From contig CM049318.1 in NCBI GenBank assembly GCA_026874595.1, forward strand, positions 41,024,456 through 41,088,455: 64,000 nucleotides of DNA. Direction: 5' to 3'. This stretch comes from Sipunculus nudus (Eukaryota > Annelida > Sipuncula > Golfingiida > Sipunculidae). Positions within the stretch are counted from its first letter, which is position 1. Every line of letters starts with the position of its first letter. Below, piece by piece: positions 10,299 through 63,219 of the stretch. Made by a program: the position numbers and the translations under genes. Below the pieces are notes generated by a model, which was given only the letters and a program-made list of their open reading frames with translations, did not search any database and was not told where the DNA came from.

Positions 10299-13200
10299 GT
10301 ATGCATCGTTAAGCGCTGAAACTATTCGATATTTACCTTATTTTACATATCTAAATATCGTCAAAAGTTTAACAATTAAATGATTTTCTTTATAAAGGTT
10401 TATATGAACAAGGCATTTAAGAATAACCAGGCTTGGCTTGGTAGAATAATGTAAATTTGTCAAAATGTATCATTTTGCTGTATCATTTATCGTAAAGTTT
10501 TATTTATAGCAAATAAAGTTTCGTTTAATAACCTGGGATCAGTTGAACCGGACGATGGTCATGATGACCCAGGATAACCTATAAGAGGCGCGAGCTCTGT
10601 CCAGTTCTTTTTCATAAAAATTACAATTCCGACATGCCACTTACGACGTCCAGGTTTTAGCCTCAACGATAAATCGCAGCCGATATGATTGGTTTCGAAA
10701 TTTTAGGGGTCAGGGTTTGATGAGGGCACGGTAAATAAGGGAGGTCAGGGTATGATAAGGACACAGAAAAGGGGGAGGTCAGGGTTTGATAAGGGCACGG
10801 CAAATGGGGGAGGTCAGGGTTTGATAAGGGCACGGCAAATGGGGGAGGTCAGGGTTTGATAAGGGCACGGCAAATGGGGGAGGTCAGGGTTTGATAAGGG
10901 CACGGTAAATGAGGGAGGTCAGGGTTTGATGAGGGCACGGCAAATGGGGGAGGTCAGGGTTTGATAAGGGCACGGTAAATGAGGGAGGTCAGGGTTTGAT
11001 GAGGGCACGGCAAATGGGGGAGGTCAGGTTTTATGAGGACACGGCAAATGAGGGAGGTCAGGGTTTGATAAGGGCACGGCAAATGGGGGAGGTCAGGGTT
11101 TGATAAGGGCACGGCAAATGGGGGAGGTCAGGTTTTGATAAGGGCACGGCAAATGGGGGAGGTCAGGGTTTGAAAAGGGCACGGTAAATGAGGGAGGTCG
11201 GGGTTTGATGAGGGCACGGCAAATGGGGAGGTCAGGTTTGATGAGGACACGGTAAATGAGGGAGGTCAGGGTTTGATGAGGGCACGGCAAATGGGGGAGG
11301 TCAGGTTTGATGAGGACACGGCAAATGAGGGAGGTCAGGGTTTGATAAGGGCACGGCAAATGGGGGAGGTCAGGGTTTGATAAGGGCACGGCAAATGGGG
11401 GAGGTCAGGTTTTGATAAGGGCACGGCAAATGGGGGAGGTCAGGGTTTGAAAAGGGCACGGAAAATGAGGGAGGTCGGGGTTTGATGAGGGCACGGCAAA
11501 TGGGGAGGTCAGGTTTGATGAGGACACGGCAAATGAGGGAGGTCAGGGTTAGATAAGGGCATGGTAAATGAGGGAGGTCAGGGTTTGATAAGGGCACGGT
11601 AAATGAGGGAGGTCAGGGTTTGATGAGGGCACGGCAAATGGGGGAGGACAGGTTTGATGAGGACACGGCAAATGAGGAAGGTCAGGGTTAATTAAGGGCA
11701 CGGTAAATGAGGGAAGTCAGGGTTAATAAGGGCAGGGTAAATGGGGGAAGTCTGGGTTAATAAGGGCAGGGTAAATGGGGGAAGTCAGGTTATGATAAGG
11801 ACACGGTAAATGAGGGAGGTCAGGGTTTGATTTGGGCACGGCAAATGAGGGAGGTCAGGGTTTGATAAGGACACGGCAAATGGGGGAGGTCAGGGTTTGA
11901 TAAGGGCACGGCAAATGAGGGAGGTCAGGATTTGATAAGGGCACGGTAAATGAGGGAGGTCAGGGTATGATAAGGACACAGTAAATGGGGAGGTCAGGGT
12001 TTGATAAGGGCACGGTAAATGGGGGATGTCGGGGTTTGATAAGGGCACGGTAAATGAGGGAGGTCAGGGTATGATAAGGGCACGGTAAATGGGGGATCTC
12101 AGGGTTTGATAAGGGCACGGTAAATGAGGGAGGCCAGGGTATGATAAGGACACGGAAAATTGGGGAGGTCAGGGTTTGATAAGGGCACGGTAAATGGGGG
12201 AGGTCAGGGTATGATAAGGGCACGGTAAATGGGGAAGTTCAGGGTTTGATAAGGGCACGGCAAATGGGGAGGTCAGGGTTTGATAAGGGCACGGCAAATG
12301 AGGGAGGTCAGGATTTGATAAGGGCATGGTAAATGCGAAGGGAAGTAATCTGGTTCTCAAGGTGGGAATCTACCTGCGGTTGGAGTTGGTGGTCATTAGA
12401 CCTGTATCTTCCATGTAGAAGTCGAAGGAACGCTCCGAGTACGACCGCGCCGTCTTCCGCAAATTATAGTATATCAGATAAAACATATCTTTTACTAGGG
12501 GTTTAAACGTTTACTTTAGAAATTGCCTATCATTATAATCAAAATGTTTGACCATCCCGAATTATTAATCACAGACAGGAATAGGGTACAAACACACGCA
12601 CACACAAGAAAAAAAAAAAAAAAAAAGAAGAAGAAAACGAATAAGCTTATCATGTTTCATCAAGTGTCCGCATTTACGATCTCAGTTTGGGAGCAATGTT
12701 TGTCATATTAAAATCTTCCATATATGTTGTGCTTTTAGGCCTGTGGGGTCTGCTCAACAACGCCGGTATCCTGGGCCGGACGGGTCCCGTAGAATGGCTG
12801 GAGATCAAAGACTATCAAAAGGTCTTTGACGTCAACCTACTCGGCTTGATTGACGTCACCATCACGTTCCTTCCTCTGGTCAAACAAGCAAGAGGACGCA
12901 TCGCCAACACAGCCAGTGTCTTCGGGAGGTACAGCTTGCCCGGTAGCGCCCCCTACAGTATCTCAAAATATGGTGTCGAGGCGTTCTCTGATAATCTCAG
13001 GTAATCCTCAGGGTACCCCCAACGGGACCTGGGACGGGTAGCACATTTTGACTTGATTACAATTAAGGATTAATAAAAGCGTGATTTCAAAAAGGATGGT
13101 AGTCCGCAAGTGAGATTATTGGGGGTTTTCTTGCATAACACATATGGTCTTGTCAATAATATTAAGCCTGAACGACGCTTTGGGCAAGTATAACCTTACA

Positions 13201-23390: not shown

Positions 23391-23463
23391 AAAAGTCTCA
23401 CAACCAGAATGGCGCAGTACGTACTGTTTGAAAAATAATGAATACATTTTCTTTTCACAGATT

Positions 23464-23797
23464 ATGTCTTGGTGTTGTGACTATTCCGTGTGGGTGATCG
23501 GCCTCTTCGTCTTGTATAAATTCTTAGACTGGGTTATTCGGATCCCAAAAATCAGCCGTCCGGACCTGAAGTATGTCATGGTAACTGGATGCGACACCGG
23601 CTTCGGACACGAGATTGCCAAGCGACTGGATTCTCGAGGAGTCCACGTGATCGCGACATGTCTTACGGACAAAGGAGAGACTGAATTGAGGAAAGTGGCG
23701 TCGCATCGCATGAAAACAATACACATGGATGTGTCCGACCCGGCCAGCGTCCGTAGAGCTTTCAGGGAGGTAAAAGACCACATACCTGAAGGAACAG
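23464..23797 (+). CDS. dehydrogenase 2, coding exon 1
   Basis: Anchor plus Rossmann motif. Donor GTATTG after GGAACAG. Length equals exon 1 of dehydrogenase 1. Confidence 0.93.
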
Positions 23798-23891
23798 GTA
23801 TTGCTTTGTCGTGTTTAATTCACTCTAACCACCGAGATAGGTTTGGAATGTTACATTGAAGACTTTTGGTGCAAAGCATATATATTAGCTT

Positions 23892-26933: not shown

Positions 26934-27758
26934 ATATTAACCCGATCAAGCTTCGGTACATGATTGCATAAGTTTAAAAATCAGGTAAAGCTTTATTTAT
27001 GTGCTTCAACTGCTTCCCGTCCATATACTTTTAAATATTTCATAAGCGGCAGCAATTACGCCTGACACTGGGTGTGTAAGCCCCGTACACGAAAAAAAAA
27101 GGAGCATTAGAGGATTGAATAACAGTATTATTTATATTTTAAAAAAAATTAAAGTGATATCATCTTTTGAAGCGAGGACCCAATCTAAACCATTGGTTTG
27201 TATATGTACATATGTATTCAACATCCAAAATCCGCGTTACTGGTCTGATTGACCTGAAAACCCCTACACATGCTCTTTGAATTAAAACATTTTAAAACAA
27301 TTGCTTATTGTTTAAAATGAAAAGTCACTGAGTGCATGGTCGGATCCAGGATTTTGGAAAAGGGGAGCGCCCTACCCAAGGAAACTAGTATGAAACCCTA
27401 AAAAGTGATGGAATTCGGATGGAGGTCCTGGCTGCATGCAGATACCCTGAAAAACTGTGTGGCGGCTTAAAAAGGAGAGGTCGAGACAGATGATCTTCAG
27501 AGAGAATCCTATGGATTCCTGAATATACGGGTGACTATAAAACCAAGAATACATTGCACAAAATTATTGTTTGTCAGAGAAAATAATAGTGGGGTTTGTA
27601 TCCACATTTGGAATCAGAAGAAATGTTTGCCGCAGATCGTCGTTCAGATGTCGTTCCAGGGTAAAATATAAAATATCCTCTACTGAATCGAAGTCGCCGA
27701 TGGTTTAACAACAATTTGCCATACCAGGCCTGCATACATGCGTTATAACCCCCTTAGT
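26934..27758. other. intergenic, no gene recognised
   Basis: AT-rich DNA between the dehydrogenase pair and the large inverted-repeat block. The GTCGGATCCAGGATTTTGG segment near 27350 looks repeat-like, but no boundaries can be set. Confidence 0.5.
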
Positions 27759-28410
27759 CCAAGAGTATTAGGTTTAACCTGGAAATAGCTGGTAACAAGC
27801 TGAAATTTTCAGGATAGGTCCAGTTATATGTGTAGAATCGTATACTAAAGTCCCCGAAAATCCCCCTTGTGCTCCCTTCAAAATCCAAGATGGCGTCCGA
27901 AATGGCTAGTTATTTTCCAATTTCTCATAACTTTGCTTGCAGACAAGATAAAACTATAAATAAAGAGTCTAATCATATGTTTTAAAGTATAAGGAATCAA
28001 ATAAATTGATAATTTTCAGAGTCCAAAGCACATACAAGTCCAAAACCAAGATGGCGTCCAAGATGGCTTCCAAAATGGCCGCCATTTTCATATCTTTGCT
28101 TCCAGACATGCTTGAACTTTAAATAAAGTATCTAAACATATGTTTAAGGAATCTAATAAAATGATATTCTAGAGCGTCCAAAGCTAATTAAAGTCAAAAA
28201 CTAAAATGGCGTCCAAGACAATCCAAAATGGAAACATTTTTTTGTTAATTTTATCAATAACTTCGCTTTTAGACAAAAATTATGCATATACATAACGTGT
28301 CAAAATACATATGTTTAACATATGCACAAGGAATCTTATAAATTTATGACCTGAAAGACCAAAACCTAACAAATATCCAATTCTGAGACGGCCAACCAAA
28401 TGGCCTCAAT
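27759..28410 (+). repeat. left long inverted repeat with GATGGCGTCC subrepeats
   Basis: Four diverged subrepeats near 27887, 28050, 28205 and 28385, each with a GATGGCGTCC-like core followed by an ATTTTCC...TTTGCTT..AGACA block. Its inverted partner is at 35100-35596. Confidence 0.82.
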
Positions 28411-28862
28411 TTTCCTTTTTTTTTTTTTTACTTTTTTTTGTTCCTTATTTTTTATATTATTATATCATATGAATTAAGGGAAAACATAATTCCCAGGCAT
28501 GGGTTTAAAGGTATTAGAATAATCATTTATTGAATTCAAAACTCACAAAACCAAAATAATCACAAAACTTGACTGTCATTGTCTACATCTTGTCTGAACA
28601 TTGGATTAAATGTCTAAACATATAAACATCAGTCTTCATCTTCATCAAGCGGTTCTATTTCTTCTACACCTACATGCACCGGTGTTGATTCAATCTCATC
28701 ATCATCATTGGCATCTAATGCCGGTGCAATATTGTTGCAAGACTGGCCGCAGCATTTACTGCACATTGGGGTACAGAAGAGTCTTCTTACAACTGCATGT
28801 CATATTTCTGCAACCATCATGTTTGCATCCACATGATACCATGTTCAATAAAGCGTCGAGTG

Positions 28863-29264
28863 CTACTGGGATGTCCGTTTCAACTGGTTCGAGAGTTCCA
28901 TCTTTTGAACGCCATCCCCTTCTGTTGGAGGTAGACTATTACCCATCCATTCTTGGACCGTGAGGTATGTGCGGTATGAATGTTGCTTTGCTGCGGCACT
29001 AGTTGGTGGTAAACTCGCAAGCTCAAATGACGTACTTAAGAAACTGCGACTGATTGCCCTTTTGTATTCAATGTGGCGGTATTCATCAAGAGATGTAACG
29101 TTGCCTGCCCCATAGAGGTTTAGGAGAACGATTTCACCAGCTCTTTTCACTTCGTCATGGGTGCTTCTGCTATTCAAGAAGGTATCCAGCAGGTCATATC
29201 CACGCTTCTTGTGAACCATGTTTAACGCTTTACGCTTGCCGATATATTGCAGATACTGTATCAC
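28863..29264 (-). pseudogene. C-terminal fragment following the PIN nuclease segment
   Basis: Continues the nuclease part one frame over: IGKRKALNMV, then an alpha-helical region with EIVLLNLYGAG and YRHIEYKRA, up to LPPTEG. A single missing base near 28910 then shifts the frame. The true continuation reads WRSKDGTLEPV and a Cys-rich module CGCKHDGCRNMTCSCKK, CSKCCGQSC after one more shift. An acidic tail ends at TGA near 28629. Confidence 0.7.
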
Positions 29265-30153
29265 ATCCTGTCACAGCATGAAGAAACATCAAGTGATTTC
29301 TAGTGTCTCCTATGGCATGATGAATTTCATGAATGTTGTATAGCCTTGTAGGATTGCTACAGCATAACATATATACATTTGTAATATGGCTTGCTTGAAC
29401 GACCAACATGACATGTAAGTCAGTGTCTGTGCCAACCACAACAACTGGCAGTTGTTCTGACTCTGCTACAGCTAGCGCTGTTGAAACTATCAGCGTGTCA
29501 GCATCTGCTTCTGCTTGTTTGACACGTATGCCAACAGTGAGCATTTTTTCACGTAGAGTTTCTATGAGTCTTTTCTTATTGTTACTGTTAGCTAGGAATT
29601 CTGCTTGGGTTGTGGTGGTTGGCATATTTTCCTCAAATATTATATCAACAGATGTACGCTTTTGGGCTCTTCGTCTCTGTTCAGCAACCTTCGTTGAAAT
29701 TGCACTACCATATCCATCAAAAACTACCGTTGATCGAGCCCCGTAATGCTTCAAGATGTAGGAAATATAGGACTGGAATACACCATTATATGTAGACTGT
29801 TGTGGCCAAACAACTGTCTGAAGTAGATGACCACCGTCTAGGACAAAGAGGCAGTTCTCAGGCTGGTTAGATTGCTTGGTGAAAGATTTCAACATGAGAC
29901 CTAAGGAGCTCTTTGTTGGCTTTCGCATTACACCATCCTTGAAAAGTGAAGGCGGCTGAGGAGCAAGTTCATAAGCCAAGAACGATCCCACCTCAGAGCT
30001 GTTGTTCAGAACACATGTGATTCTATTGAATAATAGACTTGGGTTTACCTCTACATGTTCTCCCCTGACTCGTACAGTCTTATTCTTTGCATCAATTGTT
30101 TTCACTTTGTCATTCCTGTGTAGCGTGATATCTGTGAACTTTTTACCCGACAT
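29230..30153 (-). CDS. FEN1/XPG-like PIN-domain nuclease segment, 307 codons
   Basis: The order of acidic motifs matches the FEN1/XPG PIN fold: VLDG (D106), VVFDGYG (D146, then a basic EQRRRAQKR stretch as in XPG-type proteins), EADADT (215-220), VGTDTDLHVML (D243, D245) and TGCDT (D298). Such enzymes are structure-specific 5' nucleases. The metal-binding set looks complete, but the frame is cut at 29230 by a one-base insertion just after TGCDTVSAIY. The frame continues as IGKRKALN in the next phase. The ATG lies only 3 bp from the inserted element, so the present start is probably not the ancestral one. Confidence 0.72.
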   Translation of the reverse strand: MSGKKFTDITLHRNDKVKTIDAKNKTVRVRGEHVEVNPSLLFNRITCVLNNSSEVGSFLAYELAPQPPSLFKDGVMRKPTKSSLGLMLKSFTKQSNQPENCLFVLDGGHLLQTVVWPQQSTYNGVFQSYISYILKHYGARSTVVFDGYGSAISTKVAEQRRRAQKRTSVDIIFEENMPTTTTQAEFLANSNNKKRLIETLREKMLTVGIRVKQAEADADTLIVSTALAVAESEQLPVVVVGTDTDLHVMLVVQASHITNVYMLCCSNPTRLYNIHEIHHAIGDTRNHLMFLHAVTGCDTVSAIYRQA

Positions 30154-30155
30154 TT

Positions 30156-31045
30156 TTAGCTCAGCTGACTGAAGTCATCTGAGCTATAGCGATCACCCTT
30201 CGTCCGTCGTCCGTCCGGCCGGCCGTCCGTTAACAGGGCACAAATTGTAAACGCTGGACATAGAATCTTCTCACTTGACATCCAGGGAGGTCCATGAAAA
30301 ATCTCCTTGAAAACCTGAAATTAGGTCTCTGTTACCCATATCCTTTGAGCTATGGCGCTCCAAAGTACCCCCCAGAATAATGCAAAATTTGATACAAAAG
30401 CTCAAGTATCTGAATAACCAATGCATTGATCTCCATGATTCTTTGAAGGTATATTGATCATGTATGTTCCATCAGTTCCTGCAAACTGGTGGTGCCACCT
30501 GTATTTTTTTCAATTTTGTAGGCATTTTTTCTCTATTTATGAGACCTTCGAATGAAGTGGTCATCTGTTAACATGGCACAAACTGTAACTGCTGAACCTA
30601 GAATCTTCTTACTTCACACCCAGGGAGACTAATGAAAAATCTGCTTGGAAACCTGAAATTAGGCTTCTGTTACCCATATTCCCATGAGCTATAGGGCTTA
30701 TAAATACCCCCAAGAATAATTAAAAATTTGATACATACAAAAGCTCCAGTATCTGAATAACTAATGCCTTGATAGCCATGATTCTTTGGATATATATTGA
30801 TCATGGAGTGTTTCATCAGTTCCTGCAGACTGGTGGCACTCCCTTTATTTTATCAAATTTTTACGCATTTTTTTTTCTATTTATGAGACCTTCAAATGAA
30901 GTTGTCATCTGTCCAAAAGCCCACTGAAACCCATTTCTAAGGACTCTTCACAAAATTCATGATTTGATTGCACTCTGGCAGTCATTTTGCTCATTGTTCA
31001 ACATTCCTTTAATTCAGCTGAGCGTCATGGCCCATGGGCCACTTG
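30156..31045 (+). mobile_element. family A (Helentron/HINE-like) insertion, 890 bp
   Basis: Starts TTAGCTCAGCTGAC with the hairpin partner AGTCATCTGAGCT, and ends CATGGCCCATGGGCC-ACTTG. T residues flank both sides. Internally it has CCGTCGTCCGTCC and two copies of a unit with CCCAGGGAG, GAAATTAGG and CTGTTACCCATAT. It separates the transposase-like and nuclease parts of the minus-strand gene, so it arrived after that gene. Confidence 0.85.
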
Positions 31046-31046
31046 T

Positions 31047-33293
31047 TTATGCTGCTTTTTCACCAATTTCTACTGCCTTATCACAGTTGACAGATGTATC
31101 AGCAATGATTCCCGTTGATAGAGACACCAGACGATCTGATTCATATCCAGCAAATAGTGGGTGAGATTTTAGCCATGCAACAAAGACGCAACGATCCTTG
31201 TCGTCTCTAGCCTTGGTGCTTTGCCGCATGTCTTTATGTTGTTCAGTTGTACCAGTGTGAACCCCCGTGAACTGCTCCAGTGCATCGCATATTGGAACAC
31301 AGCGTGGTAGTGCATGGACCCACTTAGTTAATGTACTGTCTGTGATGCCCCGACCATGTGTCATTCCCCTAGCTGTCTTGAGTGTCCGCATCAAGAACTG
31401 TTCAATGGTCTGATCTGAAAAATTGCCACTCCAGAATGAATCATGACGACGAACAGTGAAGTACCCCTTGTCTGTAAATAAACTGTACTCCTCTTTCGGC
31501 ATGATTGTCTGCAAGGCCTCCATTTGTTGCAAGTACAATCTTGCAGATTTAGCATAGGAAAGATGCCCTGCAGCATGAAAATGTGGAATCATTTCCCTAA
31601 CACAGCAGAGGTGGAGCTTCCAGTCTCCTGTCCTTTCAGCTCGAATGAACTGTAGTATAAGAGCCACCTGTAGGTTGTACTGCACCCAGAGTTTGCCAGT
31701 TCTGCTCTGGTCTGCAGCATGGTCAAGCAGTTGTGAAATGATCTGGCTTAATTGTTTGACAAACTCCTCCTTTGATACGTCATTCACATTCATGTCATTG
31801 TCAAGAAGGGCTCTGAAAAGGTTCTTTAAGTGACCTTTGTCTATACTACCAAGGGTGTCAGGTGTATCCATCAAGATGCCGAGGAGAGCAGCGTAAGTTA
31901 GGATGTGTGCACGCAGAGCACGTGAATAGGCATGGCCAGTTAGCATGTGTATGACAGATCCTTTAGCATATACGGTCTCCCAAAGCTCTGCTAGCCCACT
32001 GCCTCTCATAATCTGACCTATGCTGCCAAAATAAGACATAAGGAGGTGAAATCTTCCAAGACGAACCACTACTTTGTCTAGATCTGGGGAAGAAGCTACA
32101 ATTTCTGCTGCCTTAATATATAAAGGCTGGTCAAATGTGACCGGACATATTCTCAAACCATGCTTTTCGCACTGATTCTGTGCAAAGCATAATGCTGTGT
32201 ATATAGTACTGAGATTTGAGGGTTCTAGGTTAATGAAAGGCAGGGTTTCTATTCGGGTTCTCTCATATTGATCACCGTATATGGCTACTTTCATGAAACC
32301 ACTCCACGAAGTACATGGGGCTAGATCAAGAACATAGCCTATAACCCACAGATAGTCTACTGCTGCTCCTGAGCGCAAAGACTCGAGCTCCCAGCAAGGA
32401 ATCTGTAGAGGATCTATCACAACAGACTGTAAACCGGGGACAGCAGGTTTGTGAAATGTTTTACTCGGAATGTGCCCAAAGGTTCCAACTGTTGCAGCAG
32501 ATGGTAATTTCAGTCTTTGTATTATAGGCTTGTTATCTGTAATCCCCGGAGGAGTCACACAAGCAATTCCACCTATACTGTGGAAAGTATTGTGGCCAGT
32601 GACAGTTGCTACATTGAAATCTGCATTGTCGAAAACAAACTGTGTTAAACCACCTAAGTGATAAGATGGTTCACCAGATGATATAAGGGCATTTTCGAAC
32701 CATTGGACTTCTTTGTAATCATCAGCAAAGCTCATGCTACTTAAGATATCAATTAGTTCACGGGAAGAATACTTGCGGTGTATGTACACACCTATTCCGA
32801 GAAGTAGCGGTGAAATGAAAGATCTTGGTCTGCTTGCAGAAATGATTGCATGTGCTATTGATGTACATTTCCTGTCTGAAACAGTGTGACTTTTATCTTT
32901 GCCATCCACCAATTTGTGTAAGAATCGTTTCAAAGAGTTGGGTATCAATGTCTCTCCATTTTCAGTTGTATCCAGTGTTGTGTACTCGTCACAGTCGTAG
33001 ACTGTCAATCGGATGTCGTTAAGAATGATAGAAGCAGCCATATCTATTCCACGGTCACTTTGGCTCTTTGCATCAAAAACCTTGTCAGCAATCCATTTAT
33101 CATGGAGGATCCTGTGTGCTGAGTCACGGAAACTCACGATACTTGACTTTCCAGTAATGCCTGTTACAACAATGTCATCACCGTAATGTTCCTTGAGTTT
33201 AGTCTTGAGATGTTTCATTGAATAACCTTCATTTCCTTCCAAAAAAGGTAGCCATATGCTCTGAAAGTTCCTGTACAGAATACTGACATTCAT
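31047..33293 (-). CDS. transposase-like protein segment, 748 codons, intact in this stretch
   Basis: The longest clean frame in the block. Motifs: EGNEGYSMKHLKTKL (20-34), FDNADFN (221-227), TGHNTFHSIGG (232-242), VTFDQPLY (385-392), LGRFHLLMSYFGSIG (412-426) and LWETVY (437-442). Acidic residues D222/D225, D388 and E438 sit in conserved-looking contexts and could be a DDE-type catalytic set; this is inference. The first roughly 17 residues are probably out of frame relative to the ancestor, because ECQYSVQELSEH in the next frame looks like the true sequence. The final codons and stop are created by the downstream insertion at 31045. I cannot assign a named family. Confidence 0.65.
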   Translation of the reverse strand: MNVSILYRNFQSIWLPFLEGNEGYSMKHLKTKLKEHYGDDIVVTGITGKSSIVSFRDSAHRILHDKWIADKVFDAKSQSDRGIDMAASIILNDIRLTVYDCDEYTTLDTTENGETLIPNSLKRFLHKLVDGKDKSHTVSDRKCTSIAHAIISASRPRSFISPLLLGIGVYIHRKYSSRELIDILSSMSFADDYKEVQWFENALISSGEPSYHLGGLTQFVFDNADFNVATVTGHNTFHSIGGIACVTPPGITDNKPIIQRLKLPSAATVGTFGHIPSKTFHKPAVPGLQSVVIDPLQIPCWELESLRSGAAVDYLWVIGYVLDLAPCTSWSGFMKVAIYGDQYERTRIETLPFINLEPSNLSTIYTALCFAQNQCEKHGLRICPVTFDQPLYIKAAEIVASSPDLDKVVVRLGRFHLLMSYFGSIGQIMRGSGLAELWETVYAKGSVIHMLTGHAYSRALRAHILTYAALLGILMDTPDTLGSIDKGHLKNLFRALLDNDMNVNDVSKEEFVKQLSQIISQLLDHAADQSRTGKLWVQYNLQVALILQFIRAERTGDWKLHLCCVREMIPHFHAAGHLSYAKSARLYLQQMEALQTIMPKEEYSLFTDKGYFTVRRHDSFWSGNFSDQTIEQFLMRTLKTARGMTHGRGITDSTLTKWVHALPRCVPICDALEQFTGVHTGTTEQHKDMRQSTKARDDKDRCVFVAWLKSHPLFAGYESDRLVSLSTGIIADTSVNCDKAVEIGEKAA

Positions 33294-33544
33294 TCATCAT
33301 CATTATCAAGAAAATTGCAGAGTTTACTGAATGCCTCATCCCGCAAATTCTTATTTGGTGTTTCCTCTTTCTCTCTTGAACGAAAAAATAATTGAGCACA
33401 CTGTCGGTGATACTTAGCTTCAGCTGCAACCAGGTCATAAGTATGTTGCACACGTTCAGCAACTTCATTGCCCCACTTGTCATGCCTTTCGCATGCCCGA
33501 TTTATGACTGATGCTTGGAATTCAAATGTTTCTACATTGCTCAC
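33290..33544 (-). pseudogene. N-terminal fragment of the transposon gene
   Basis: An 84-codon frame with CERHDKW and AAEAKYHRQCAQLFF, a Cys/His pattern that may bind zinc. Farther upstream (33690-33960), in shifted frames, come the related blocks CKEGSPAIVVVG, LERGDGL and HCRKNYTRKSSIASAK, and DINNDCLFCN is near 33610. The fragment ends at a stop created by the ATGA duplication. Confidence 0.65.
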
Positions 33545-33960
33545 TGCCCTTCTTCTATAGCAAGCAAGCTTACTGTCCTGAGCTACAGGTTAGTTACAGA
33601 ATAAGCAATCATTGTTTATGTCAAATGTCCGGGGAATACTTGACCGCAGTACAGGCACTTCATCTCCTTCAAGACACGCAGCTTTTCTCCTTTGCAGATG
33701 CTATGGAACTCTTACGTGTGTAATTTTTGCGACAATGAGCATGGGTTCTCATTGGCGTTGCCTTCTCAAATGCTTTATTAAGGCCATCTCCTCTCTCCAA
33801 GCTTGAGGACACAAGGGTATTGCGTCCCTTGTCCCCAACAACAACAATTGCAGGTGACCCTTCTTTACAGATGTACTTTAACAGCTGGTGATGTGTTTTT
33901 TTTTCATAGATTTCTAAAAGACATCTGATAATGATCTTATGTCAGCAGTACTGAACAGTG

Positions 33961-35099
33961 TTACCTTGTCATATGTATGATGAAAAAGTATTAAAACGCC
34001 AGGGGAATTTTTCACCGCAAAATTTAAACAGATCCGTATAGGAATAAAGTTTATTACAATCAGAGGGCAAAGGGAATCATAGCTTCTGTATATTCTGATA
34101 TTTTAAGGAAAAGACATCACAATGAACTTTTTTCAGGTTATATTATGATATAGCACTGTATGAAGCAACTTCACAGGGGAAGCAAGCCTGGTCTGGGTGT
34201 TTTTATATCAGAGCACATGAAAGACCCAGTTGACTCAGACACTGTACAACAATGTAATACAAATTTGATGTTAACACTGTGTATTACATTCAGTCGAGTG
34301 CAAAAGCTACAGCTATTAGGTAAATAAAAGGGTACTTGTTCCATTACTAAAGAAAACAACAGTTATCCCTAACGTATGAAATTTAAAAACATCCTCGATT
34401 TGTTTATTTGGAAATCTCTGGGCTGCTTGAGGTCAGTGAACACAAGTTCGAATTTATAAAGAAGCACTCATATGGCCGTTGACTAACAAATGATATTCTG
34501 TAATATCGGGATATCAGCTACCTTACTTGACGTATGGTGAAAACTGCCCGCGGTCCCAAATGTGAAATGAGTTTAAATGCCCAGAGGAGATTTGTCGCAA
34601 ATCTGAAAATGTAGCTTCTTTGACAAATTTATGTTATTTGAACTTTAGTTCTAGATATTTATAAATTGTGTTCCCTGTGGTAGGATTATAACAGATTCCA
34701 TGTTTAAACTAGCTCCGATTATATATAACCTTGGTTTGAGATTTTTTGTCCACTCTAGATAATCATGTTACCATATTTGTGATACCCTGAATCATATGTG
34801 GGGACACTTTATTTATATTTCTAGCTTATGTTAAAGGAAAACAATGAAAAATTTAAAATTTGTGGCCATTTTTGAATCTGTCTTATACTTATAAACTTGT
34901 TTATTTTAATTGGATTCCACGAATAATTATTATAACTGATAAAGGAACTCTCTTTGGCTCAGATAATGGCGTTCAGTAGTTTGTAGGGGTGGAGGATACC
35001 GGAGAAAACCACCGGCCTTGGACAGGCAACTACAACCCACTCTCATAGCCACGCCGGGGATAGAATCCGGGTCGCTAGCGGAGAAAGACGAGCGCTTTA
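33961..35099. other. inner flank of the large transposon-like block
   Basis: AT-rich, no gene. Around 34690-34900 there are weak matches to the arm subrepeat (GTGGCCATTTTTGAATCTGTC). This suggests that the right arm once extended inward and was split by the SINE-like sequence at 34960-35105. Confidence 0.45.
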
Positions 35100-35105
35100 C
35101 CCATT
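34960..35105 (-). mobile_element. tRNA-derived SINE fragment
   Basis: On the minus strand it starts near TCAATGGGTAAAGCGCTCG (box A like), has GGATTCTATCC (box B) and then GGTTTTCTCCGG plus TCCTCCACC, a combination common in animal tRNA SINEs. A shorter relative lies at about 37925-38000. Confidence 0.55.
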
Positions 35106-35596
35106 GACATCTTGGACACCATCTTGGTTGGTGACTTTCGTGAGCTTTGAACTCTCTAGATCATTATTTCATTAGATTCCTTGTCCCTTAAAACATATGA
35201 TTAGATACTTTATTTTTAAATTTATCTTATCTGGAAGCAAATTTATGATAAAATTGGAAAATGGCGGCCATTTGGATGCCATCTTGGACGCCATTTTGGT
35301 TTTGGACTTGTGTGAGCTTCGGACTCAAAATTATCATTTTATTTGATTCCTTGTACTTTAAAAAAAAGTGATTAGACACTTTATTTATAGTATTATCTTG
35401 TCTGTAAACAAAGTTATGAACAATTGGGAAATTACAGCCATTTTGGACGCCATCTTGGATTTTGAAGGGAGCACAAGGAGGATTTTCGGGGACTTTGAGT
35501 ATATGGTTCTACACATATTCCTGGACCTATCCTGAAAATTTCAGCTTGTTACCAGATATTTCCAGGTTTAGGGCGTATATTAGCTAATGCTCTTGG
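35100..35596 (-). repeat. right long inverted repeat with GACGCCATCTTGG subrepeats
   Basis: Inverted counterpart of 27759-28410. Cores CATCTTGGACACC, CATCTTGGACGCC and GACGCCATCTTGG are near 35110, 35280 and 35450. The outer part includes GAAAATTTCAGCTTGTTACC. Confidence 0.82.
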
Positions 35597-35740
35597 CCAC
35601 ATTCGTTGGAGAGGGGAATTAGTGGCATAAGATTTTTTTGAGTAACAATAATATCGGTATTCTCTCTTTCTCCATTGTATATTTCGTACACAAATTAAAT
35701 ATTTCTTCGCCACCAGGCTGCAAATAATTGTCAGATAACG

Positions 35741-35902
35741 CACAGGCACTCGTTTCCAGCACTTAAATGGCCTAGAAACCGAAAACGCATTGAGTATGGG
35801 CGATATACCCATTATAAAAGAACTAATATAATGGGTATATCGCCCATACTCAATGTGTTTTCGGTTGCTAGGCCATTTTAGTCCTGGATTCGAGTGCCTG
35901 TG
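35741..35902. mobile_element. hAT-type palindromic MITE, copy 1
   Basis: 162 bp, almost fully palindromic. Ends are CACAGGCACTCG and CGAGTGCCTGTG. Both arms contain GGCCTAG, CCGAAAAC and GAGTATGGGCGATATACCCA. A perfect 8-bp target duplication AGATAACG flanks it (35733-35740 and 35903-35910). Eight-bp duplications with CA-type ends fit the hAT superfamily. Confidence 0.93.
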
Positions 35903-36047
35903 AGATAACGCATCGTAACAATCCTGTACATGGGAGTTGGTGGCTCATGATTCAGGAATTGATCCAAGTAAATATAAAGTAAGCCAAATACATCTCGCAA
36001 TGATAAAGTGCGCTTGGAGAAAACTAATTGTTCTTTATGGTACTGAG

Positions 36048-36200
36048 CACAGGCACTCGAATCCAGGACTAAAATGGCCTAGAAACCGAAAACACATTGA
36101 GTATGGGCGATATACCCATTCTTTTATAATGGGTATATCGCCCATACTCAATGTGTTTTCGGTTTCTAGGCCATTTTAGTGCTGGAAACGAGTGCCTGTG
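36048..36200. mobile_element. hAT-type palindromic MITE, copy 2 (opposite orientation)
   Basis: 153 bp, same family and ends as the copy at 35741 but inverted, as shown by the asymmetric arm variants (CGTTTCCAGCACT versus CGAATCCAGGACT). The perfect 8-bp target duplication is GTACTGAG (36040-36047 and 36201-36208). Confidence 0.93.
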
Positions 36201-43529: not shown

Positions 43530-46500
43530 GTAACATATGAATCAAGTTATTAGGCTGATTGCATACAGTTGAAATTACTGTCAAATGAAGTTGAATTTAG
43601 TATTTTTAGTATGGTATTAAATGTCCAAAAACAAGTTGGGGCGGTGATGTAATGGTTAAGGTGCCGGGCTTATGATCGAGAGGTCGTGAGTTCGAATCTC
43701 AGTCAGACCCCTATGTGCCAAGACCCTTAGGCAAGGTCCCAACTACAAGTGTGCCTCTGTCCACCCAGCTGTAGAAATAGGTACCAGTAAATACTGGGAA
43801 GGTAACCTGCGATGGACTAGCGTCCCTTCCAGAAGGGGTTTAACTCCTTAGTCTCTTCACGCAACCGAAACCCGGATAAGCTCCGGCCTGATGAGCCATT
43901 AGGCTCAGGTGTAAAAGCCCAGCAGACTTTTTTTTTATTAAATGTCCAAGGTTAAGTTGCTTCTTTGATGAAGTGAAAACGGGGATAGATCTAGTGTACC
44001 AAGATCTACTGTTGTATTATCCTGTGTTTAAGTGAAACCATTAAAAACATTTTAATATTGGTTCAAGTATTGATAAACTGGTGATATCATGTAATCCAGA
44101 GTACATACTACAGCAGACAAAATGTCTCAGTCATATAAAGTTCTTGATTGTCTTCTGTGTTGACTATACCTGGGCTGCAATACCTTGCTCATATCTTCCC
44201 ACAGTCTTATCCCAGGTAAACCTTGCCCACCTACCACACTCAAGCGCCTTGTAATTCTTAACGACCCCTGTGTTAGATACCTTAAGTTGTTTGTGGACTG
44301 CTGATATTCTTGTTGGTTATGTTATTAATTAACATTAAATATATCAGTCACCTTGAGACAGTACAAAACCTGAGACATCATTATGCTGGAGTCTTACTTC
44401 ATTTTAAATCCTCATGACTTGTTTTTGTGATCATTGCAGCTATCAAAAACTGCTGACAGAAGTCATTGTGGCCACAGTCCATGAGAAGAGACCAGTAACA
44501 CAGACACTGACAGCATCATTTGAACAACATTCTCACATGAGTGAGCTCCTCACTGCTGTCGTCGAGGTAATATTTCATGGTGAAAAAACTGGAAAATGAT
44601 ATTTGGACAGTTTCATTACAGTCACATTAAAATTTTATGAACACCTGTTGTGTGAAGTATGCCATTTATTAGTGCTGGCAGACCAGATAACGGGGTAATT
44701 GTCAGTTAACAGCAACAAGAATCACATTTTGCAGCTCATGCTTGACATTGATTGATACATGTCACCCATATTCATTTCAAACAATGTAGAGCAATGGATA
44801 TTAATGTCACCACCCCCCCCCCCCCCCACCCCCCTCCCCCCCCCCCCCCCCCCCCCCGTTTTCAGTGCCCTCTTTGTCTGTTGTCGTCAGTCGTCTGTAT
44901 CTTTTGAACGCTATATCTTTTGAAGGGCTGCATATTTTCCTCTGAAAGTTAAACACTGATGGTTCCCACCAAAATCTTGGGTGACTTTGACCTTCATCTT
45001 CAAGGTCAAATCTGCTTAACTGATTAATTTTTAGTGAATCTGTGAGCTTATGCGATGGCCCAGCTTCGTCAGCCATCCGCCGTCCAGGGCTGGCTTTCCG
45101 CTGTCCATGGCTGTAAGTCAGAAACCGTCGGAGCTAGCAGCTCCAAATTACATGTAAGAATTAGTCACATGTGAAACTTGGTGCCCCGGAGCTTATTATT
45201 GGGTATCTAATTTAAATTTTATAGAAAAAAAGCTTAAAAACCTTTTAAAAATCTTCTTCTCTGAAAATGTCAAGCCAAATTGTCCAATATTTCACAGAAA
45301 TGATCCCTGGAGCAATCTTTCTCAAGTTTGTTCGAATGGTTCCAGTTCGGAGATTTTTGGCTGAGTTACAGGAGGTTGTCCAAAAAAGCACACTAAAATT
45401 GAAATCTCAGAAACAGCTAGAGCTATAATCACCAAATTTTATACCAATGTTTGTCACATATGTCATATCTGAATTTGAGGTATTGGTGGCGCCACCTACA
45501 TTGATGTGTTCTTACAAGCGAAAATGTAATTTTAAACTCTTCTAGCTTATACACTGATTTATGATGAAACTGTTAAGCTGATTGGTTTAAACTTTACAAG
45601 AATTATTCTATGGTAGGGTCCTGCCAGTTTTATAAGAATTGATTGGGTCAATACGGTTTTAAAAAAGCATTGTAGCCAATTGAAAAAATCTTTCTGTATT
45701 TGAAAACAGATTTGACAACATGCTGAGTTTCAGCAGCCAAGTCAAGAGGTCACTCAGTACAAACAGGTGGGGTCCAGACATCACTATGGCAACTGACCTG
45801 GCTCTGGGGGGGTGTCTAGACAATGTGTCTAGACATCTAGACACAGCGTCTAGATGTCTAGACACAATGTTTAGATGCAGATTTCCCAGATTATTGGAAC
45901 TATATCTTTCAACTGTTTGGAAAAACTTCTTGTGCATTTTAAGCGAATCAGGTTTATCATCAGGTCACATTTAACTGCTGCCCCCTCATTTTTTGTTGAC
46001 CTCTGACCTTTCCTCGCTGCCCAGTGTCCATTTGTGCGTCGGTTTCCACACATAAACCTGCATATCTCGGGAACCGTTTGACCGATCAGGCTAAAAATTT
46101 TGCACAAATGTAGCCCTTTGATAGCTTTATAACATACACTAAAAATTGTGGCGCCACTTGCAACCATTTTTGCACAGCGTCCATCTGTTCATCTGCCTTG
46201 GGATAATATCACTCATATCTCAGCAGTGGTTTGACTTATCCACCTGAAATTTTGCAGGTTTATACATCCTGGACAGCTTTCTCGATTTTATGATAGATGG
46301 CGCCACCTACATTCACATTTACTCTGCAGACATCCAAACTCATATCTCAGGTACTGTTTGACCGATTGGGCCAAAATTTTGCATGTGTATAGATCTCACA
46401 AAGCTCTTCATCACAGGCAAAACTGGTGGCGCCACCTGCAACCATTAATGCACAGCACCAATCTGTTCATCTGCCTTTGGATAAAATCACTCATATCACA

Positions 46501-49500
46501 GCAGTGGTTTGACTTATCCACCTGAAATTTTGCAGGTTTATACATCCTGGACAGCTTTCTCGATTTATGACAGATGGCGCCACCTACAACATGTTTACTC
46601 TGCAGACATCCAAGCTCATATCTCGGGAACTGTTTGACCGATTGGGCCAAAATTTTGCATGTGTACAGATCTCACATAGCTCTTCATCACAGGCAAAACT
46701 GGTGGCGCCACCTGCAACCATTAATGCACAGCACCAATCTGTTCATTAGCCTTTGGATAAAATCACTCATATCTCTGCAGTGGTTTGACTTATCCACCTG
46801 AAATTTTGCAGGTTTATACATCCTGGACAGCTTGCTCGATTTATGACAGGTGGCACCACCTACATTCACGTTTACTCTGCAGACATCCAAGCTCATATCT
46901 AGGGAACTGTTTGACCGATTGGGCCAAAATTTTGCATGTGTATAGATCTCACATAGCTCTTCATCACAGGCAAAACTGTCGGCGCCACCTGCAACCATTA
47001 ATGCACAGCACCAATCTGTTCATCTGCCTTTGGATAAAATCACTCATATCACAGCAGTGGTTTGACTTGTCCACCTGAAATTTTACAGGTTTATACATCC
47101 TGGACAGCTTTCTTGATTTTATGACAGGTGGCGCCACCTACATTCACGTTTACTCTGCAGACATCCAAGCTCATATCTCGAGAACTGTTTGACCGATTGG
47201 GCCAAAATTTTGCATGTGTATAGATCTCACATAGCTCTTCATCACAGGCAAAACTGGTGGCGCCACCTGCAACCACTTATGCACAGCGTCCATCTGTTCA
47301 TCTGCCATGGGATAAAATCACTCATATCTCAGCACTGGTTTGCTTTTTCCATGTGAAATTTTGCAGGTTTATACATCCTGGACAGCTTTCATAATTTATG
47401 ACAGGTGGCACCACCTACATTCACGTTTACTCTGCAGACATCCAAGCTCATATCTCGGGAACTATTTAACCGATTGGGCCAAAATTTTGCATGTGTATAG
47501 ATCTCACATAGCTCTTCATCACAGGCAAAACTGGTGGCGCCACCTGCAACCACTTATGCACAGCATCCAAATGTTCATCTGCCTTTGGATAAAATCACTC
47601 ATATCTCAGCAGTGGTTTGACTTATCCACGTGAAATTTTGCAGGTTTATACATCCTGGACAGCTTTCTTGATTTATGACAGGTGGCGCCACCTACATTCA
47701 CATTTACTCTGTAGACATCCAAACTCATATCTCGGGAACCGTTTGAGGGATTGAGCCAAAATTTTGCATGTTTATGGATCTCACATAGCTCTTTATCATA
47801 CAAGAAACTGGTGGGGCCACCTGCAACCACTAATGCACAGCGTCCATCTGTTCATCTGCCTTGGGATAAAATCACTCATATCTCAGCAGTGGTTTGACTT
47901 ATCCACCGGAAATTTTGCAGGTTTATACATCCTAGACAGCTATCTTGATTATATGACAGGTGGCGCCACCTACATTCACGTTTATTCTGCAGACATCCAA
48001 GCTCATATCTGGGGAACCATTTGACCGATTGGGCCAAAATTTTCCTTTGTGTTTAGATCTCACATAGCTCTTCATCATAGGCAAAATTAATGGCCCCACC
48101 TGCAACTTTTTTTGTACAGCGTCCATCTGTTCATCTGCCTTGGGATAATATCACTCATATCTCAGCACTGGTTTGCTTTTTCCATGTGAAATTTTGCAGG
48201 TTTATACATCCTGGACAGCTTTCTCGATTTATGACAGGTGGCGCCACCTACATTCACGTTTACTCTGCAGACATCCAAGCTCATATCTCCGGAACTGTTT
48301 GACCGATTGGGCCAAAATTTTGCATGTGTATAGATCTCACATAGCTCTTCATCACAGGCAAAACTGTCAGCGCCACCTGCAACCATTAATGCACAGCACC
48401 AATCTGTTCATCTGCCTTTGGATAAAATCACTCATATCACAGCAGTGGTTTGACTTATCCACCTGAAATTTTGCAGGTTTACACATCCTGGACAGCTTTC
48501 TTGATTTTATGACAGGTGGCGCCACCTACATTCAGGTTTACTCTACAGACATCCAAGCTCATATCTGGGGAACCATTTGACCGATTGGGCCAAAATTTTG
48601 CATGTGTATAGATCTCACATAGCTCTTCATAATAGGCAAAATTATTGGCCCAACCTGCAACCATTTTTGTACAGCGTCCATCTGTTCATCTGCCTTTGGA
48701 TAATATCACTCATATCTCAGCACTGGTTTTCTTTTTCCACCTGAAATTTTGCAGGTTTATACATCCTGGACAGCTTTCTTGATTTGATGACAGATGGCGC
48801 CACCTACATTCATGTTTACTCTGCAGACATCCAAACTCATATCTCGGGAACCGTTTGACGGATTGAGCCAAAATTTTGCATGTGTATGGATCTCACATAG
48901 CTCTTTATCATACAAGAAACTGGTGGGGCCACCTGCAACCACTAATGCACAGCGTCCATCTGTTCATCTTCCTTGGGATTAAATCACTCATATCTCAGCA
49001 GTGGTTTGCTTTTTCCACGTGAAATTTTGCAGGTTTATACATCCTGGACAGCTATCTCGATTTATGACAGGTGGCACCACCTACATTCCCGTTTACTCTG
49101 CAGACATCCAAGCTCAGTAATTACAAAGTTTGTGTTACCTTTCAATAATTAAATTATAAAAAAATCAAATTAATACTTCATTAAACATTCAAGGATATTA
49201 TCTTCATGAAGATAATATCTGGACGTATCACAGTGTCTTTTATACTTAAATACCTCATTTATGTCACAAATGGAGCATCACTTGTTATTGACAGTTCTCA
49301 TTGACATATACACAATAAACTTATATTATTACATACATGAGTGTCTGGGTGTTAAACATACATGAGTGTCTGAGTGTTAAAAAGGAAGATTCTTAAAAAT
49401 ATTAACACAGGTTGCTTTAAATGACAGAACAGCACATTTTCTGTAAAAAATGCACATGTATGATGTATAAAGTGAAACCTGTAGTTAATTTGCACACACA

Positions 49501-53700: not shown

Positions 53701-56700
53701 TATCACAGTGGAGAAACATTTATAGTCCAATCACGATCAGCTGAGCGCTGTGACCCATGGGTCCCTTGTTGCACAGTGTCCATCAGTTTAAAATCTCTCA
53801 TATCTCAGCAGTGGTTCGACTTATTCACCTGAAATTTGGCATATGTATACATCCTGGATAGCTTTCTTGATTTTATGACCAGTGGCGCCACCTACTTTCA
53901 CGTTCATGCTGCAGATATCCATGTTAATACCTCCAGACTGGTTTGACGTACCTACCTGAAGTGATGCATGTGTTTGGATCTCACAAAGCTCTTTATCATA
54001 TCAGAAACTGGTGGCGCCACGTGCAACCATTTTTGCACAGAGTCTATCTGTTTGTCTGCTGTGGGAAAAAATCACACATATCTCGGTAGTGGTTTAACTT
54101 TTCCACCTGAAATATTGCATGTGTATATATCTTGGATAGTTTCTCATTCAAATAACAGGTGGCGCCACCTACAATTAAGTTAACATGGCAGACATCCGTG
54201 CTAATATGTAACACATCTAACTCTATTTCCCCTTGCCACTCAATCCATGTCTCACTTCACCCGTCCTACTCTGATTTTGGCGGATACCCATATTCTATTT
54301 ATTAATTAAAATTAATTAGATGATTTGATAAAAAAAACAAATTTAAAAAGTTTAAAAATATCTGCTTGAGCAGTACATACTTCCTTTAATTTTAATGTTC
54401 ATTTTAATTTTAATAGCCTTCATATGTACACTTTAAACCTAAGGATTTGTCCTTGGTAAAATTAATACTGTTTGGGTTCTGGTGCCATATACAGCTGAAT
54501 TGCCGGTTCCATGTGTATAAACAGCACGCTTTCTTGGTTTAATGTCTGACCTAGCAACCGTATCCAAGGTGGGCGGAGCTATCTCATCCATGCCGTCACT
54601 TCACTTGTCAGCTAACAGCAAAAAGAATCACAATATGCAGCTCATGCTTTACATTGATTGATACATGCATATGTGTCACCCATATTAATTTCAAATAGTA
54701 TAGGGCAATTGAAATTTCTTTTCAGTGCTAAATTATAGGTTTTCCAGTGTTGTTGCTATAAAACAAAAATATTTACATGCTCTTTTATGATGTTATATTT
54801 ACATGCTTTGCCCCTGTCACCTTCATATGTATTAAACTTTAGGAACTATATGCTGTGTATTCTATTTAGTAAGTAAACTACATTCACCATGGAGAATTTC
54901 ATTATATTTTTATGTATTTTCCCTTTTTCATTCCAGAAACTGAATAAGAGAGATGGACCTGGGAAGCATTTGTTGACTTTTGGGTTTGGTTCTGTGAGTA
55001 TAGCTGTATGTAAAATATTTCTGAATGGAGTCAAACTTCGCTTGAGGTTATTTAAGTGATGCTTACATGAGAAACTTGTTTGAAGAAAAAACAAACAAAA
55101 TAAATAGTTTTATTGCAACTTGACAGTACTGTGAGCATTATAAGTCAAAACAAATGGACACATTTTTTTTATACTATGCACATGCATGGATATTGGTTAT
55201 ATGATGAAGTTTATACGAGAGTGGCCTTGACCTTGAAAATTTTCCATATTTGGTGAAAAACGAACAAGAAAAGTGTTTCTCAAGTGTATCTAGATGTAGA
55301 TATTTCTGCAAATCCATTTGAAAGATATCAGACAATAAGTTGTCAGAAGAGTTTTAAAACCTGTGTAGGCCCTACCTACAATTGTTTCATATATCTGTGC
55401 TCATAGCCAAAGAGTGGTTTTAGGTATCTGTCTGAAATTTTGCATGTCCATACATCTTTGATGGCTTTCTATTTCACAAGGCTCGTGGTGCCATCTACAA
55501 TCATTAGCTCAGCTGACTGAAAGTCATCTGAGCTATAGCAATCACTCTTTGTCCGTCGTCCGTCTGTCTGTCTGTCTGTCCTTCTGTCTGTCCGTCTGTC
55601 TGTCCGTTAACCAGGCACAAATCGTAACCGCTAGAACTGGAATCTTCTTACTTGACATCCTGGGAGGTCCATGAAAAATCTCCTTGGAAACCAGAAATTA
55701 GGTCTCTGTTACCCATATCCTTCGAGCTATGGGGCCCCAAAGTACCCCCCAGAAAAGTCCAAAATTTCATACAAAAACTTCAATATCTCATTAACTTCTT
55801 GACTGATGGTCATGATTTTTGGCATACATATTGATCATGAGAGGTTCCATCAGTTCCTGAAGACTGGTGGTGCCACCTGTATTTTTCGATTTTTTACGAA
55901 TTTTTTTCTCTATTTTTGAGACCTTTAAAAATGTGAACATCTGTTAACAAGGCACAAATCTTAATGACTGGACTTAGAATCTTCATTCTCGACTCACTGA
56001 GAGACCTATAAAAAGTCTCCATGGAAACCAGAAATTAGGTCTCTGTTACCCATATCCTTCCATCTATGGGGCCCCAAACTCCCCCCCAGAAAAGTAAAAA
56101 ATTTCAAACAAAAACTTCAATATCTCATTAAATACTTGACTGATGGTCATGATTTTTGTCATACATATTGATTATGAGATGTTCCATCACTTCCTGCAGA
56201 CTGGTGGCGCCACCTGTATCGTTCAATTTTTTACGAATTTTTTTCTTTATTTTTGAGACCTTTCAAAATGTAAACATCTGTTAACAAGGCACAAATCGTA
56301 AAGACTGGACCTAGAATCTTCATTCTTGACACACTGAGAGACCTATGAAAAGTCTCCATGGAAACCAGAAATTAGGTCTCTGTTACCCATATTCTTCGAG
56401 CTATGGAGCCCCAAAGTACCCCCAAGAAAAGTAAAAAATTTCATACAAAAACTTCATTATCTCATTAACTACTTGACTGATGGTCATGATTTGTGGCATA
56501 ACTATTGATCATGAGATGTGTCATCACTTCCTGCAGACTGGTGGTGCCACCTTTATTGTTCGATTTTTTACGATTTTTTCCTCTATTTTTGAGACCTTTA
56601 AGGATGCTGTCATCTGTTAGCATGGCAAAAATAGTAAAGACTGGACCTAGAATCTTCATTCTTGACACACTGAGAGGTCCATGAAAAATATCCTTGGAAA

Positions 56701-61068: not shown

Positions 61069-61833
61069 GTATGTATTCATCAAAACTAAAGGGCTTCACT
61101 CACAGCATTAGGTTTTATTACGTAAACATAATTGTGAGCTGTTTCTGTATTAATGAGAATTTTCTCTGTTAAAGTTTATACGCCAGAGTAAGCCAACCGA
61201 AAATTTTCCCTTATTGGGCCTATTATCGCCCATCCCGCCTCATTCCCGTGTATCTAGGTCACACTTCCGTTTCCTGTAATCACATTTTTCTTCTGGCGTC
61301 AGCCATGACGGACGTGTGATCACACTCTGCGCGATTCGTCCACTGTTTTGGTTTGTACAGTCGGGTTTACCAACTGAATTGTAAGTAGTGATTCATTTTA
61401 CCTTCCCGCCATGGAGCCCTTCCTGTTCTTCTGGTGGTTAATTAATCCCCACTTGGAATTCACCCCCCCCCCCCCCCCCCCTGTTTCACCTGCTGTTCAA
61501 ACAATGACATTTGCCAGGGCCCTGCGGATCCCTGCTTCTTTTGTCAGCCTTGGTCGTCTGACCCTTGGGCCATGTTCCATGCCTGGTCCCATACCCCGGT
61601 TGTAGGGGTTCCCCGTACACGGTGACCTTATCTGGCCCCGTTGTTCCCCCGGGGGGGGGGGGGGGGGGGGATCCTACCGTGGGTGGCCGCAACACATTCG
61701 TTCCTGTGACTTCTCGGCTCGGTCCTGCTGCTGGCCGACCGCGGCTTCTTTTTTTTTCCAGCCTCCAGTCGTTCCGGCTCCAAGGGGTTCCCTGGATCCC
61801 CCTTCCCGGGGTTCTCCAGTGTCCCCTTCCTCT

Positions 61834-62145
61834 CACACGGCGGATCCCGCCCTGGCATAAGATCAGTGGTCAGAGATCACGCTGCAACGCCAGGCTTGGC
61901 GTCCACACACCTCTGCCCTGATGGACCTCATTGCTTCACACGGCCGATCCCGCCCTGGCATAAGATCAGTGGTCGGAGATCGTGCTGCAACGCCAGGCTT
62001 GGCGTACGCGCGCCTCTGCGCTGATGGACCTCGTTGCTTCACACGGCCGATCCCGCCCTGGCATAAGATCAGTGGTCGGTGATCGTGCTGCAACGCCAGG
62101 CTTCGCGTCCGCGCACCTCTGCGCTGCTGGACCTCGTTGCTACCT
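61834..62145. repeat. three tandem copies of a 103-bp GC-rich unit
   Basis: Copies start at 61834, 61937 and 62040 with CACACGGC.GATCCCGCCC, followed by TGGCATAAGATCAGTGGTC, GCTGCAACGCCAGGCTT and TGGACCTC.TTGCT. Confidence 0.93.
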
Positions 62146-63219
62146 CCACGAAGGAGCCGCAACCTGATGGTCCGCCGTTCCGTCATTTACAGCCTCGGAC
62201 TTCCACGGCGTCGGCGGCCGGTTCTTATTTGAATCCAGCCGCCCTCCTTTGCCTTCCTCCACACCCGCCGGTGTGTATGGCATTCCCTATAATTCGGTTG
62301 CACTTTACGGGGCACCCCACGCCGCCGTTCGGGGTCGATCTCGACCGCTACTGGGGCCCCGGTTCCGCCCAGGTCTAATAAGGCGTGGTCCCCTGAGGGT
62401 CCTGGGAGTCAGGTTTTGCTCGTTTGATCCCTTTCTGGATCATCCGGCAGTTCCTTAGGTGCACATACATCTAGAGTCCGGGCTGGTACAACCGTTCGCG
62501 GTTGGGCTAACCTCATTTCTTCATCCGCCCCAATAACCGACCGTCTACTGCCGGTTCTCGAGGGGCTCGACTGTCCGGCAGCGGGGCTGGTGGATAATTT
62601 ACTCTAACCTCCTCGCCGTCTCAACGGATCTGCTCACACTGTATGGTATTTGTCAGGCGTCCACACATGCCTGTGCTGAACGCCGACAGGTTAATTGGCG
62701 TGTTGTAGCACTTGTGGTTTACTGCACCTCTCGGCCTGTATCCCTTCATTACGTCCCTTGAAACCCGCACTCCGGCTGATTTAGCTGAGCTTTACGCTCA
62801 ACTTTTACGGGGTATATTCTGTTTGGCGGCCGCTTAGGCCCTCTAGACCGTGCATTGGATCGTTCCGACAGGCCCGCCCGCTCCCGTTCCGCCACTCCTC
62901 CTCCACGCCCTTCTTACCACATTCTGCGGTCGCGGCCTTCCTGTACGGCCCTCTCATCGGCTCGTGGGGCCCCCGCTCCGTCGTCCCGTCCATCTGACCG
63001 TACCGGTCGTGCACAGCCTTTTTCTCGGTTGTTCCTCGCGCCGATGTTCAACCCATAACTGACTCTTACGGTCCGGTTGGCGCTCGTCTCAGCGACCTAT
63101 TTTCCAGCTTGGCTGAGCCTAACGTCACCTCGTTAGTTCTCAGCCCACTCTAGTTCAGGTTCCGTTAACCTTTTTGCACGTACCTCCAGTCACCCTGCAG
63201 CCGTTCTACCCTCAGCCTC

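Follow-up and report, generated by a model that had tools for sequence, protein, structure and literature searches.

A decayed transposon copy, probably of the AcademX lineage, with a FEN1/XPG-like nuclease in Sipunculus nudus

The transposon copy and its coding parts

We analyzed a stretch of 64,000 nucleotides from the genome of Sipunculus nudus (assembly GCA_026874595.1, contig CM049318.1; C13:41024456-41088455), which is called the window below. The whole genome comprises 1.43 Gb in 153 contigs. On the minus strand of the window lies a transposon copy (27755..35600) of 7846 bp, later insertions included, which very probably is a broken member of an already named lineage. Its protein relatives join a transposase core to a FEN1/XPG-like nuclease.

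The left end of the copy reads TAGTCCAAGAG..., and the right end, which has been changed, reads ..CTCTTGGCCAC. A sequence-only reading of the same DNA had set the limits of the block at 27759 and 35596. The block is indeed bounded by repeats, but other copies in the genome place its true ends four bases further out. The ends at 27755 and 35600 are common to four related copies at both ends (L009, L010, L013 and L014) and to two more at one end (L011 and L012), and the sequence outside them differs. The terminal sequence of the elements is TAG...CTA. An alternative placement of the ends at ACCTGG (27777/35567), which would give a TTA duplication, was considered and rejected; the bases just outside ACCTGG are common to the sister copies, and the ends were therefore placed further out at TAG...CTA.

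The left terminal inverted repeat (27755..28218, plus strand) and the right one (35110..35600, minus strand) are 84.3% identical over a gapped match of 465 columns, and ungapped arms were detected too. Each repeat carries four GATGGCGTCC-like subrepeats, at 27889, 28050, 28062 and 28205 on the left and at 35114, 35274, 35286 and 35445 on the right. With at most one mismatch, the subrepeat was matched 10 times in the window (1.47 expected from shuffling), and 8 of the 10 matches fall inside the two repeats. The long inverted repeats and their subrepeats had thus been described correctly.

Two other features lie close to the right repeat. The segment 34950-35105, at its inner edge, looks, though by eye only, like a short repeat derived from a tRNA; the tRNA scan was negative. 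About 140 bases beyond the right end of the transposon, four copies of about 80 bp follow each other in alternating orientation (35736-36200), with arms that are 90-98% complementary; this is possibly a fold-back element. Scanning the window for Rfam families and tRNAs gave no match.

Four coding parts were recognized between the repeats, all on the minus strand. The N-terminal region of Cys/His (zinc-binding) type occupies 33293..33872 in more than one frame, where it was found by tblastn matches of the relatives P0005, P0012 and P0022. It is followed by the transposase core of 748 codons (31047..33293), whose DDE candidates are D222/D225, D388 and E631, and by the FEN1/XPG-like nuclease of 307 codons (29230..30153), which has seven conserved Asp. 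The C-terminal part with a CXC-type Cys-rich tail (28635..29267) is broken over two frames; it was recovered by tblastn matches of P0012, P0015, P0025 and P0031 and in a three-frame reading. The 748- and 307-codon frames are therefore present as claimed. The single minus-strand coding region holds with regard to the strand, but it is not one open frame.

Between the core and the nuclease lies a later insertion of an interspersed repeat of about 886 bp (~30157..31043, strand not assigned). It is lacking in all four other copies compared at this place (L009, L010, L012 and L013). Because of this insertion the core and the nuclease do not share an open frame in the window copy, although they are joined in its relatives. 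The relatives align only piecewise to the window copy, with frame shifts in the N-terminal and tail parts. Since its frames are broken and an insertion splits them, the window copy is dead and cannot transpose, and the integration or excision machine suggested earlier does not exist as a working system at this locus. DNA related to the insertion occurs at 55504-59429 of the same window, where a tandem array (55606-57565, 337 bp × 5.8) is also related to it.

Dispersed copies and target duplications

At least 94 core matches occur in the genome, some of which are several pieces of one copy; 60 of the 461 candidates of the core scan were scored. A scan for the terminal pattern gave hits at 16 places, compared with 0 for the reversed control. 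Of the 16 genomic regions fetched, 10 contained a two-ended relative, and no two-ended element was delimited in the regions L011, L012, L015, L016, L020 and L022. In the close relatives the ends are TAGTCCAAGAG... and TAGGCCAAGAG..., slightly altered in L010, L011 and L014, and the flanks differ; four of these relatives are two-ended (L009, L010, L013 and L014) and two one-ended (L011 and L012). Six more distant elements (L017, L018, L019, L021, L023 and L024) likewise start with TAG. L018, L019 and L021 have one end sequence in common and therefore form one family.

Target duplications are short direct repeats on both sides of a transposon. We found a flush 3-bp duplication in all ten two-ended relatives (TTA, CTC, ATA, GAA, TAT, TAA, TAT, GTA, TAT and ATG), and a 4-bp duplication in none of them. 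The chance of a flush match of three bases is 0.019 per pair; there is slight freedom in this test, as the ends of the distant families had been placed by eye from the flanks beforehand. Among the 16 places of the terminal-pattern scan, L026 (G000:C7:34277343-34277370 with flanks) is a two-ended deletion derivative of 1157 bp with a CAA duplication, and it is probably non-autonomous. At L035, L036 and L039 a second end may be present, but no duplication was found there.

The proteins of open-frame copies in this genome have about 1460-1530 amino acids. L017 encodes 1460 amino acids in one open frame with all four parts and is flanked by a 3-bp duplication. The open frame of L018 (1531 amino acids) contains the core, the nuclease and the zinc motifs and is also flanked by a 3-bp duplication; the tail motif was not found in it by pattern.

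Dispersed copies with common ends and 3-bp duplications bear out the description of the block as transposon-like. A large conserved protein might also be explained as a host gene, or as a domesticated transposon gene, that is flanked by repeats through accident. A related locus might be cited in favour of this explanation. On C9 (36.15-36.18 Mb), at L020 (G000:C9:36150000-36159999) and at the positions 36163231 and 36173021, three units spaced by exactly 9790 bases contain a related core with 34% identity, and the 10 kb read there had no long inverted repeat. These units are a tandem duplication that may represent a host-fixed copy. Against this explanation, the window locus is broken and has the ends specific to the family, and its close relatives occur on several contigs with the same ends and 3-bp duplications. 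A host gene at the window locus was therefore rejected as contradicted by the shared ends and duplications, and we consider this explanation extremely improbable. In another region of C9 (G000:C9:70958685-70977490, partly covered by L022), four related core matches follow each other in the same orientation at spacings of about 5.4-5.5 kb, as head-to-tail copies of one family.

The protein family and its predicted folds

With the core as query, 207 proteins were obtained at E <= 0.001, and the best 120 of them were analyzed. Among their named sources are the annelid Capitella, insects, a shrimp and a rust fungus. A nuclease match was present in 66 of these best 120. Among the relatives whose core match reaches its end with at least 150 amino acids following, the nuclease was present in 53 of 53. 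Fusion was scored here by profile matches, with profiles built partly from the same proteins; a previous count of all motifs by simple patterns (11/120 relatives) was superseded by them. A second search used the nuclease-and-tail part of P0015 as the query and found 112 proteins, 105 of them new, with named sources that include Mytilus, Patella and Nucella. The core was followed by the nuclease in all 105 new proteins. Because this search was confined to proteins 0.55-1.75 times as long as P0015, short free-standing nucleases could not show up in it. In 67 new proteins of 1380-1650 amino acids, the core and the nuclease were both present in 67, the N-terminal zinc pattern in 55, the CXC pattern in 54 and all four parts in 47. 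The claim that a transposase core and a nuclease share one polypeptide is thus borne out in the relatives, but not in the window copy, where the insertion separates them.

The predicted Cys/His N-terminus is also a property of the family. All 26 relatives in which 100 or more amino acids precede the core (a limit lowered from 150) have the motif CxxC...[YF]HxxC, as against 4 of 5200 shuffled sequences, and relatives match the window at 33872-33293. For the tail, the cysteine pattern CxC...C...CxC...C...C...C was found in 7 of 7 relatives with at least 200 amino acids after the nuclease (shuffled 0/1400). The CXC-type tail is seen in relatives, and in the window copy it is split, each half being in another frame. 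The Pfam CXC model had no match listed at E <= 1 for eight relatives, yet some databases name relatives so.

Pfam gave no match over the cut-off for the four window pieces, the sole listed match being 5_3_exonuc_N (E 0.061) on the nuclease. For the eight relatives it gave only weak matches below the cut-off, among them DUF6589 and PIN_4; no paper in the collection searched mentions DUF6589. When viral contigs and genome contigs were searched with the protein and alignment A1, no confirmed relative was obtained. One relative of 1318 amino acids (P0125) is filed under a metagenome-assembled genome of Sedimenticola. It is probably animal DNA within that assembly, because the prokaryote collection yielded no confirmed relative.

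The model of the core has a predicted RNase H-like fold, as expected of the DDE transposase that had been proposed. Compared with PDB structures, it resembles the P element, Hermes, Transib, ISCth4, RAG1 and the Prp8 RNase H domain, with 7-9% sequence identity to the P-element transposase, Hermes (hAT), Transib and RAG1. Foldseek with the core model returned no match at E <= 0.001 and a mixed list. The conserved acidic motifs are clear among the relatives: D222 in 100/102, D225 in 103/103, D388 in 117/117 and E631 in 89/92.

The predicted model of the 307 residues has a PIN-like fold and resembles Exo1, FEN1, GEN1 and XPG at 12-19% identity. A search of PDB sequences with alignment A2 (which contains P0063 twice) gave one lectin match only, at chance level (E 0.98). 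The acid set of the PIN nuclease is complete, as claimed: D106 was found in 54/54 relatives, D146 in 45/46, D217 in 40/41, D219 in 40/41, D243 in 40/40, D245 in 40/40 and D298 in 37/39. Two active-site acids of human FEN1 are Glu; the nuclease of this family has Asp at these positions and differs from FEN1, XPG, Exo1 and GEN1 also in being fused to a transposase. Taken over the family, none of the three observations that would speak against a transposon was made, namely homologues consistently lacking flanking inverted repeats, single-copy syntenic orthologues, or predicted structures lacking an RNase H-like or PIN fold.

Classification and the possible role of the nuclease

The nuclease of AcademX elements is XPG-like. 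The sequence-only reading knew of no named superfamily with the present layout, and this did not hold: AcademX is described in print as a nuclease-encoding Academ lineage with target duplications of 3 or 4 bp (PMC10045372). The family described here agrees with it in the transposase with a nuclease, the inverted repeats and the 3-bp duplications. The hosts agree as well. Academ is reported to have expanded in bivalves, while Capitella teleta and Helobdella robusta have few of its reading frames (PMC10294476); the relatives here include Capitella, Mytilus, Patella and Nucella. Because the nuclease, the duplication length, the inverted repeats and the host range all fit, we assign the window element, as a decayed DNA transposon copy, to the AcademX lineage of the Academ superfamily; this is highly likely on the match to the printed description. 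None of the features compared differs from AcademX; the window copy itself is broken and has no target duplication (flanks CCT and ATT, with a changed right end).

It is also conceivable that the family is a separate, unnamed superfamily which merely resembles AcademX by its nuclease and 3-bp duplications. The assignment was made on printed descriptions, and no paper in the collection searched uses 'Academ' and 'XPG' together as whole words. However, the nuclease, the duplication length and the host range all agree with what the papers on AcademX and Academ print (PMC10045372, PMC10294476), and we regard a separate superfamily as unlikely.

Other assignments were tried. AcademH would belong to the same superfamily, provided that the assignment to Academ is correct, but its printed duplications of 9 or 10 bp (PMC10045372) are contrary to the 3 bp found in all ten two-ended relatives, and it was rejected. 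No helicase family, the AcademH trait, was among the Pfam matches at E <= 1 of the eight relatives. The P superfamily was rejected in the same way, since P elements make 8-bp target duplications. Compared with the P-element transposase, Hermes, Transib and RAG1, the present family carries an extra fused nuclease and a CXC tail and makes 3-bp duplications. KolobokE, KolobokD and KolobokP, as described in PMC9587614, are likewise DDD/E transposons with an accessory nuclease, but their nuclease folds are PD-D/ExK, DEDDh and His-Me finger.

A likely mechanism for such a protein can be proposed from the predicted folds and the conserved acids. In the relatives, a single protein has a zinc-binding N-terminus, a DDE core, a FEN1/XPG-like 5' nuclease and, in most cases, a CXC tail. 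The N-terminus, the CXC tail or both may bind the subrepeats in the ends. The DDE core would cut at the TAG...CTA ends and join the 3' ends to the target at positions staggered by 3 bp. The nuclease would then cut or trim the 5' strands, either freeing the element in a role like that of TnsA, or, once joining has taken place, clearing 5' flaps to allow the gap to be sealed. The window copy is incapable of every one of these steps because its frame is broken and a later insertion is present.

Tn7 encodes TnsA, a restriction-enzyme-like nuclease, separately from TnsB. The likeness, which is one of analogy only, lies in the proposed division of labour, with one active site for the 3' strands and the other for the 5' strands; the present family differs in having one polypeptide and another nuclease fold. 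We tentatively suggest that the fused FEN1/XPG nuclease may make the 5'-strand cut or resolve the 5' flap of the integration intermediate, that one polypeptide may unite the labour of TnsB and TnsA, and that the 3-bp duplication may reflect the joint geometry of two active sites. The difference in duplication length between AcademH and AcademX has been linked to the encoded helicase or nuclease (PMC10045372). This link argues against a nuclease that takes no part in cutting or joining and serves, for example, in donor-site repair or against host defence, and so does its fusion directly behind the core in every relative able to show it (53/53 and 105/105), with acids conserved at 95-100%. The AlphaFold models and the conserved acids themselves reveal no role, and such a function elsewhere is a possibility that we take seriously without favouring it.

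Elsewhere in the window, tandem arrays lie at 46141-49116 (278 bp × 10.7) and 10708-12335 (35 bp × 46.9). An exon-like frame of a short-chain dehydrogenase (23428-23859; Pfam adh_short, E 1.2e-10) is probably part of a host gene. The end of the window (61833-64000) is rich in G+C (0.58 in 62001-64000) and contains three copies of a 103-bp tandem repeat (61833-62141).

What our results add is one family whose ends and duplication size are defined, and which very probably belongs to AcademX. The cutting of 5' strands or removal of flaps by the nuclease would be the sole step of the proposed mechanism to surprise specialists. The question of the nuclease can be addressed with protein, because L017 and L018 have uninterrupted frames and 3-bp duplications. 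The puzzle is why this flap nuclease, its seven acids conserved, stays fused to the transposase in a lineage whose hosts include molluscs, annelids, arthropods and a rust fungus.

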